Positions 46,235-46,660 of a DNA stretch of 64,000 nt are shown piece after piece. Position 1 is the first letter of the stretch. Each line of letters begins with the position of its first letter. The notes under the pieces were generated by a model. It had not been told where the DNA came from, did not search any database, and was given only the letters and a program-made list of their open reading frames with translations. Source of the stretch: Sphingobacterium sp. B16(2022) (lineage in GTDB: Bacteria; Bacteroidota; Bacteroidia; Sphingobacteriales; Sphingobacteriaceae); contig NZ_JAAUVN010000001.1 in NCBI RefSeq assembly GCF_012030425.1, positions 1,674,001-1,738,000 on the forward strand, written 5' to 3'. Made by a program: the position numbers and the translations under genes.

Positions 46235-46265
46235 TTTGGTTTGTAAAAAGCAAGGCATATATTTG
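46235..46265 (+). promoter_or_regulatory. Bacteroidetes-type promoter of the met leader
   Basis: TTTG (46235-46238), 19 bases, TATATTTG (46258-46265), matching TTTG/TAnnTTTG. Transcription should start near 46271, upstream of the SAM-I aptamer. Confidence 0.8.
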
Positions 46266-46314
46266 CAACGTAGTTCAAATAGAAATACATCTAATCAACA
46301 CCTCTTAATCAGGT

Positions 46315-46431
46315 CTTGATTTATAAAGAAGTGGCGAGAGACTGGCTCAATGACCCACTGGCAACCTTCAAAATACGTTTGAAAAGGTGCCAATTCCTGT
46401 CCAAAGTAATATTGCTTTGGAGGATATAAAT
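46315..46431 (+). promoter_or_regulatory. SAM-I (S-box) riboswitch upstream of metY
   Basis: The S-box core is directly legible: the P1 5' strand TTTATA (46320-46325), AAGA, P2 AGTGG with the kink-turn GAGAGACTGGCTCAATGAC (46336-46354) and CCACT, then GCAACC (46361-46366). The P3 hairpin CTTCAAA/TTTGAAAAG, AAGGTGCCAATTCC, and P4 CCAAAG/CTTTGG (46401-46420) follow. The P1 3' strand TATAAAT (46425-46431) pairs with ATTTATA (46319-46325). SAM-I senses S-adenosylmethionine and shuts down methionine genes. The P1 3' strand contains the start codon of a short ORF, so control of translation is likely. Confidence 0.9.
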
Positions 46432-46558
46432 GAAACGACAAATGATAATAACATTACAACAAAACAAGAAGGTAAATTCTAGCACCAACGTAACAGATAC
46501 AAATATTCCATCAAAACAGATGCGAATGCTTTTGCACATGTTTACGTTTTCTTGTTAA
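46430..46558 (+). CDS. 42-codon Met-rich leader ORF behind the SAM-I riboswitch
   Basis: The ATG at 46430 follows GGAGGATATAA, the clearest Shine-Dalgarno-like site I noted in the window, and the frame runs 42 codons to TAA at 46556-46558. The product starts MKRQMIITLQ and ends RMLLHMFTFSC. Five of 42 residues are Met and the last is Cys. The start codon lies in the P1 helix of the riboswitch, and GGAGG spans the P4/P1 boundary, so SAM binding should hide both. It has no similarity I recognise. Whether the peptide matters or only its translation does is open. metY starts 102 bases beyond its stop. Confidence 0.6.
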   Translation: MKRQMIITLQQNKKVNSSTNVTDTNIPSKQMRMLLHMFTFSC

Positions 46559-46660
46559 TCAATCTTTTTTAAAATTTATTGATTTCAAGTACATATCCAT
46601 GTGCCCAATCTCACCCCTATTTTTTATTAACGAATCTTCAACTAATTAATTATAACTACA

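Follow-up and report, generated by a model that had tools for sequence, protein, structure and literature searches.

In the window (the whole stretch of 64,000 nucleotides analysed here), a predicted SAM-I riboswitch is followed by a short leader open reading frame (ORF) that stands ahead of a metY-like gene. We propose that SAM gates initiation on this ORF, which would act as a Met/Cys attenuation leader, and we consider this reading fairly probable. It draws on features legible in the DNA itself, namely the aptamer match, the spacing between the aptamer and the start codon, the kept reading frame, a Met/Cys and CGA-AUG tail of the leader peptide, a hairpin over the ORF end in the window, and covariation of the corresponding stems in relatives. 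A more specific version, which we put forward only tentatively, is a two-key switch: SAM-I would license the leader, CGA-AUG would hold the ribosome at the place where Met- or Cys-tRNA decides the hairpin, and metY would open only if SAM and charged tRNAs are both short.

The aptamer spans positions 46318 to 46432 of the forward strand and matches RF00162 at 84.9 bits (E 1.2e-18), against a gathering cut-off of 44.4 bits for this covariance model. On sequence and structure alike, it matches the SAM-I (S-box) aptamer, as the initial annotation had claimed. Its P1 helix consists of the 5' strand ATTTATA (46319-46325, +) and the 3' strand TATAAAT (46425-46431, +), both placed by the Rfam alignment. 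The genome holds three SAM-I copies; the remaining two, which precede metE-like and metF-like genes, have no ORF in the leader position. The metY-like gene (46661-47968, +) encodes a Cys/Met metabolism PLP-dependent enzyme (PF01053, 458.5 bits), and we take it to be metY. It is followed by a homoserine dehydrogenase gene (48008-49189, +; PF00742 and PF03447). For comparison, we took the best SAM-I locus from 92 of 93 same-genus genomes, whose named members are Sphingobacterium; one genome (G072) was left out, having a weak match with no place given. The metY gene follows the leader in 91 of these 92 loci, and in the last one, L025, the contig ends before it, so that L025 was excluded from tests 3' of the leader ORF.

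Bacteroidetes promoters follow a TTTG/TAnnTTTG consensus. A promoter of this type, with TTTG at 46235-46238, N19 and TATATTTG at 46258-46265, covers 46235-46265 (+), in agreement with the consensus promoter noted earlier. The pattern TTTG-N17-23-TAnnTTTG recurs 5' of the aptamer in 52/92 genus loci (0.5 expected from mononucleotide shuffles), and TAnnTTTG alone in 90/92. A sigma-70 scan of the region found no promoter on the + strand. Further upstream, at 45979-46001, a terminator-like hairpin and T run follow the prephenate dehydrogenase gene and apparently part that gene from the metY promoter.

The position of the leader start is set by comparison within the genus. Taking as the leader start the ATG found 16-21 nt after ATATAA, we find this codon 8-13 nt downstream of P1 in every one of the 92 leaders; in 89 the distance is 9-11 nt. 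In the window it lies at 46442, 10 nt beyond P1, and opens an ORF of 38 codons (46442-46558, +; MIITLQQNKKVNSSTNVTDTNIPSKQMRMLLHMFTFSC) with conserved start spacing, frame and tail; its product has 1 Cys and, apart from the initiator, 3 Met. The initial annotation had instead placed the start at an AUG embedded in P1 (46430-46432, +), to be hidden directly by the helix, with a 42-codon ORF as the regulatory unit. What it described is indeed present in the window: this AUG shares two bases with the 3' end of P1 and begins a frame of 42 codons that runs to 46558 and encodes 5 Met and a C-terminal Cys, and ATATAAATG, which places an AUG in P1, occurs in 60/92 genus leaders. However, ATATAAATG is missing from the other 32, and only 5 of the 92 leaders, two of which belong to this species, keep the P1 AUG in the frame of the leader ORF. 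In 36 leaders the P1 AUG opens a 2-codon frame and in 6 a 4-codon frame, and in four further genomes of the window clade (L029, L032, L035 and L039) it reads MKRQ-stop, the window having ACAAATG where these four have ACAATG, a one-base difference. Because the P1 AUG is so rarely in frame and differs by one base from the rest of the clade, we assign the conserved start to 46442 and reject the P1 AUG as leader start. The frame-conservation check that had been proposed for the 46430 frame therefore fails, and the same check on the 46442 frame is passed. Direct masking of a start codon inside P1, with the 42-codon ORF as regulatory unit, is in our judgement very improbable. As an observation of its own, where a P1 AUG is present it opens in most cases a mini-ORF (of 2 or 4 codons) whose end falls just before or on the leader AUG, and in L029 the mini-ORF and the leader AUG overlap as ATGA; a P1 mini-ORF might feed termination-reinitiation at the leader start.

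The GGAGG that had been offered as ribosome site of the ORF proved to be part of the 3' strand of the aptamer P4. Since GGAGGATATAAAT occurs in only 4/92 genus leaders, we reject Shine-Dalgarno (SD)-driven initiation of the leader. Ribosomes of Bacteroidia have been reported, in the accessible part of PMC9976891, to lack recognition of SD sequences.

Leader ORFs of the genus range from 19 to 46 codons; their body varies freely, and their C-terminal end is conserved. The distance from the ATG to CGAATG (CGAATA in one leader) takes 16 values, of which those in 91/92 leaders are multiples of three, as befits an attenuator in which a short coding ORF is held in frame before a biosynthetic gene. 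RM[RCL] lies within the last 16 residues in 89/92 leaders, RMR forms the last three residues before the stop in 51/92, and Cys-Cys occurs in 26/92. Over 23 disjoint close pairs, pN/pS was 0.57, and 0.47 for the last 12 codons, which points to mild purifying selection on the leader ORF. Between the window itself and L029 (pN 0.164, pS 0.154), the ratio is not below 1 and no purifying signal is visible. A protein database search with a 44-residue relative of the leader peptide returned 6 matches, the named ones being hypothetical proteins. A scan of 296 genomes of the phylum, of which only the window's and one other are identifiable as same-genus, for CGAATGCGNTAGTCGT-N25-55-ACGACCA found 0 occurrences, a result of little weight given that sampling.

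Related leaders extend beyond the genus. Genome searches yielded 102 metY loci, of which 17 (L173-L189) repeat the genus and 85 are others. Outside the genus, the S-box core was called by a string rule, and the leader ORF was taken to start at the ATG, 38-85 nt beyond the core, whose frame gave the best Cys/Met tail. Of the 85 loci, 16 lack an S-box core within 600 nt, the core of L149 is spurious, and L144 has no ORF, leaving 67 leaders, among which the same species may appear under a named and an unnamed record. An ORF in the leader position is therefore found in 67 of 68 non-genus metY loci with an upstream S-box core, in genera that include Mucilaginibacter, Pedobacter, Hymenobacter, Pontibacter and Rufibacter. 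The peptide tails are exemplified by CMCMCCCCC, RMRMRGCCCACCSCC and CMCCCMR; within the last 16 residues, Cys-Cys is present in 63/67 and Cys-Cys-Cys in 51/67. When the non-genus ORF rule was applied to both groups, the last 16 residues held on average 3.77 Cys+Met in the 92 genus leaders (0.27 in shuffled sequences) and 6.81 in the 67 non-genus leaders (0.31). Codons of the pathway thus cluster by the stop, as in an attenuator, in the genus and beyond it, weakly so in the window (3 Met, 1 Cys), whose single Cys does not form the Cys run near the stop that marks mycobacterial polycysteine ORFs.

Among 17 SAM-I loci before metE/metF-like and other genes, an ORF in the leader position was found in 0; L101, L104 and L106 were left out of this control, and a survey of 57 SAM-I loci left out 22 whose core the string rule missed. 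At L101, L104 and L106 themselves, SAM-I is present as a second copy, and the ORF behind it is a leader of this type, with tails like CCCRMCIRLY. The gene that follows looks to us like OsmC/Ohr; a 70-residue piece of it gave no Pfam match. In three loci from other families (L280, L282 and L284), SAM-I is likewise followed by a Met/Cys leader ORF, and a fourth (L281) has SAM-I and an ORF in the leader position without a Met/Cys tail, which speaks against a universal rule.

The spacing seen in the genus also recurs. The gap between P1 and the ATG is readable in 53 of the 67 non-genus leaders, of which 44 fall at 7-12 nt, with a mode of 10; in 9 of the 53 it is 0-4 nt, the P1 ends there being probably misread. 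In L144, which has no leader ORF, the metY start (placed by homology) itself stands 11 nt past P1. This suggests that the switch governs whichever start codon stands just past P1, L144 being the direct form.

Near the end of the leader ORF lies an in-frame CGA-AUG (Arg-Met) codon pair (46523-46528, +), present in 91/92 genus leaders and in 20/70 non-genus leaders, L280, L282 and L284 having been added to the 67 for this count only. Where an Arg codon precedes a tail Met, it is CGA 91 times out of 108 within the genus and 29 times out of 33 outside it, against a CGA share among metY Arg codons of 5.6% (genus) and 3.3% (elsewhere). In a his-leader assay, ribosomes stalled at certain Arg codons, CGA being one of them (PMC4046918). 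An attractive reading of this codon bias would be a programmed pause beside the sensing codons. As the relatives carry Cys runs and CGA-AUG, sensing of sulfur amino acids is the likely meaning of the leader ORF. A conserved C-terminus as short as RM[RCL] on a variable body would also suit an arrest peptide, in which an Arg-Met-Arg-stop nascent chain halts the ribosome and perhaps senses SAM or Met directly, with tRNA shortage playing no part. We regard this as unlikely, since the relatives carry Cys-rich tails of varied order, as codon sensing predicts, and since what is kept is the codon CGA, beyond Arg alone.

A hairpin covers the end of the ORF (46534-46604, +; MFE z -4.0), with outer arms GCACATG (46534-46540) and CATGTGC (46598-46604). 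The weak post-stop hairpin described in the initial annotation (AATCAAT/ATTGATT, 46557-46584) is present, but it is enclosed by these outer arms in a larger structure that begins inside the ORF. Among the 57 genus leaders that end in RMR, RMC, RML or RIR (the RMR type), 52 have a stem that starts with the five bases directly following the stop, where shuffles predict 17.3, and these stems covary (for example TCGTC/GACGA, TCGTT/AACGA, CCGTC/GACGG, TCATT/AATGA and CCTTT/AAAGG). The 21 leaders of the MRMRMHMH clade build the 5' arm from the Met/His codons themselves, as seen in the folds of four, and in 21/21 there are 8-12 T among the 14 nt that follow the 3' arm. In each hairpin type, the 5' arm could be covered by a ribosome near the ORF end, as in an attenuator. 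Outside the genus, hairpin stability is modest (mean z -1.42; 17/67 below -2).

The nucleotide-level conservation of CGAATGCG beside a covarying stem raises the question of whether the ORF is translated at all: CGAAUGCG and the stem that follows could together be an RNA element that mimics the end of a reading frame. This seems to us highly doubtful, given a frame kept over 16 distances and Cys runs that occur in unrelated sequence contexts. Nor does an outer helix account for CGAATG. Among the 44 RMR-type leaders that bear the required 3' arm motif, it was found in 23, against 18.5 expected, and we reject an outer RNA helix as the cause of CGAATG conservation. Codon sensing by a translated leader remains our preferred reading.

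How the leader would act on metY appears to differ between clades. Terminator-like structures follow the leader in 21/21 members of the MRMRMHMH clade (dinucleotide shuffles, 0.35), in 12/57 of the RMR-stop type (0.14), in 2/7 of the other genus types (0.04) and in 19/67 non-genus leaders (0.24); in the window clade there are 0/6 (0.04). A terminator scan of 45900-47000 gave two matches, both at 45979-46001 before the promoter, and none after the aptamer, which upholds the earlier statement on this point. On the counts for the window clade, the RMR-stop type and the other genera, we reject intrinsic terminators as the general output; in the MRMRMHMH clade, intrinsic termination is plausible. 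Sequestration of the metY start is not supported: over 91 leaders, the mean unpaired probability upstream of the start is 0.65 in all three ribosome states, so that the predicted accessibility is unaffected by ribosome position. The output on metY is probably exerted at the level of transcription. The interval from the leader stop to metY (46559-46660, +) is C-rich and G-poor (C 20.6%, G 4.9%), with a C-G bias of 0.157. None of 25 upstream regions of the window is as biased; the highest value among them, 0.15, belongs to the 100-nt region of metY itself. Given this interval, the absence of a terminator from the window clade and the lack of sequestration, we infer that Rho-dependent release is the likeliest route in the window.

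The same C-rich interval, along with the Cys-poor peptide of the window, would fit a simpler arrangement that responds to SAM only, in which translating the leader would serve only to protect the transcript from Rho and the codons convey no amino-acid signal. We give this little credence; it leaves both the Cys/Met enrichment and CGA-AUG unexplained. The earlier proposal that control passes through translation of a Met-containing leader ORF beside SAM-I and ahead of metY, with no terminator, stands as plausible, and the Rho-dependent polarity that it invoked may apply.

Taken together, gating of a Met/Cys attenuation leader by SAM would work as follows. At high SAM, ligand binding would close P1 beside the start at 46442 and block initiation on the leader; the hairpin would then form, and transcription would likely end early. 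At low SAM, the leader ORF would be translated. With ample charged tRNA, the ribosome would finish the leader and leave. With scarce charged Met-tRNA (in relatives, Cys-tRNA), the ribosome would stall and be held near CGA-AUG, keeping the hairpin open and allowing metY to be expressed. We hypothesize a two-input sensor, in which SAM sets whether the leader is read and tRNA charging sets how the reading ends.

Riboswitches and leader-peptide attenuators are usually seen as alternatives; here, they appear to stand in series across several Bacteroidota families. The mgtA leader offers a parallel in which an Mg2+-responsive RNA is combined with mgtL, an ORF with Pro codons. It likewise joins an ion or metabolite sensor with a codon sensor in one leader, but its signals are different and it has no S-box. 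The mycobacterial Cys-run ORFs are reportedly termed leaderless in the title of a 2020 article by Canestrari et al. The accessible text of PMC1262725 describes Cys-run leader ORFs of Actinobacteria that are likewise short, have the Cys run near the stop, and precede sulfur genes, mostly with no obvious terminator. No riboswitch is described in front of them there, whereas the leader reported here follows an aptamer and adds Met and CGA-AUG. In Mycobacterium tuberculosis, a B12 riboswitch and a translated upstream ORF likewise control a gene jointly (PMC11260477, in part). That system differs in ligand and phylum and reaches ppe2 through overlapping stop and start codons and reinitiation; in the window, metY begins only after a further 102 nt beyond the leader stop. 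The available portion of the same article does not describe Met/Cys sensing codons in the B12 upstream ORFs, unlike the leader here. Classical attenuators (his, trp and M. tuberculosis ilvB1), as covered in the consulted part of PMC13236596, share codons for the pathway product and a hairpin at the point that the ribosome reaches last; in the present case, initiation on the leader would itself lie behind SAM-I, and no terminator/antiterminator pair was found in the window. SAM-I riboswitches with the ribosome binding site in P1, treated in PMC2258182, resemble this system in that ribosome access would depend on whether P1 forms. In those riboswitches the masked start is that of the gene itself; in the present system a leader ORF takes its place, with L144 as the direct form. 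A hybrid of a SAM-I aptamer and a sulfur leader ORF was not found described in the open-licence literature searched.

If our reading is correct, gating of a leader ORF is how bacteria without SD recognition could operate a translational riboswitch. The system would further provide a compact logic gate with two inputs, open to testing by reporters, as well as a conserved example in which a rare codon pair may serve as a regulatory pause.

Several further observations concern the wider family of metY loci. In Flavobacterium anhuiense and F. salmonis (L171 and L172), metY is 93% identical to that of the window, and a tree places it inside the window's clade (96/87; clade 100/100), which suggests transfer. 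As no S-box core was found within 600 nt upstream of metY in either locus, the gene apparently left its leader behind. By a strict rule, Met/Cys ORFs occur before the Flavobacteriaceae metY relative in 1/30 loci. L283 and L285 have Met/Cys-rich ORFs (KHMMCMCCCM and KMMMCCKMPMC) upstream of metY with no S-box core upstream, and in L285 a terminator-like hairpin and T run follow the ORF; this type is possibly the ancestral, SAM-independent form. As of 2007, according to the consulted part of PMC2258182, SAM-I and SAM-II were both known from no single species. L285 carries a SAM-II match (543-649, -; 49.2 bits, cut-off 44) and a SAM-I match (3879-3986, +; 72.4 bits) within one 4.3 kb locus.
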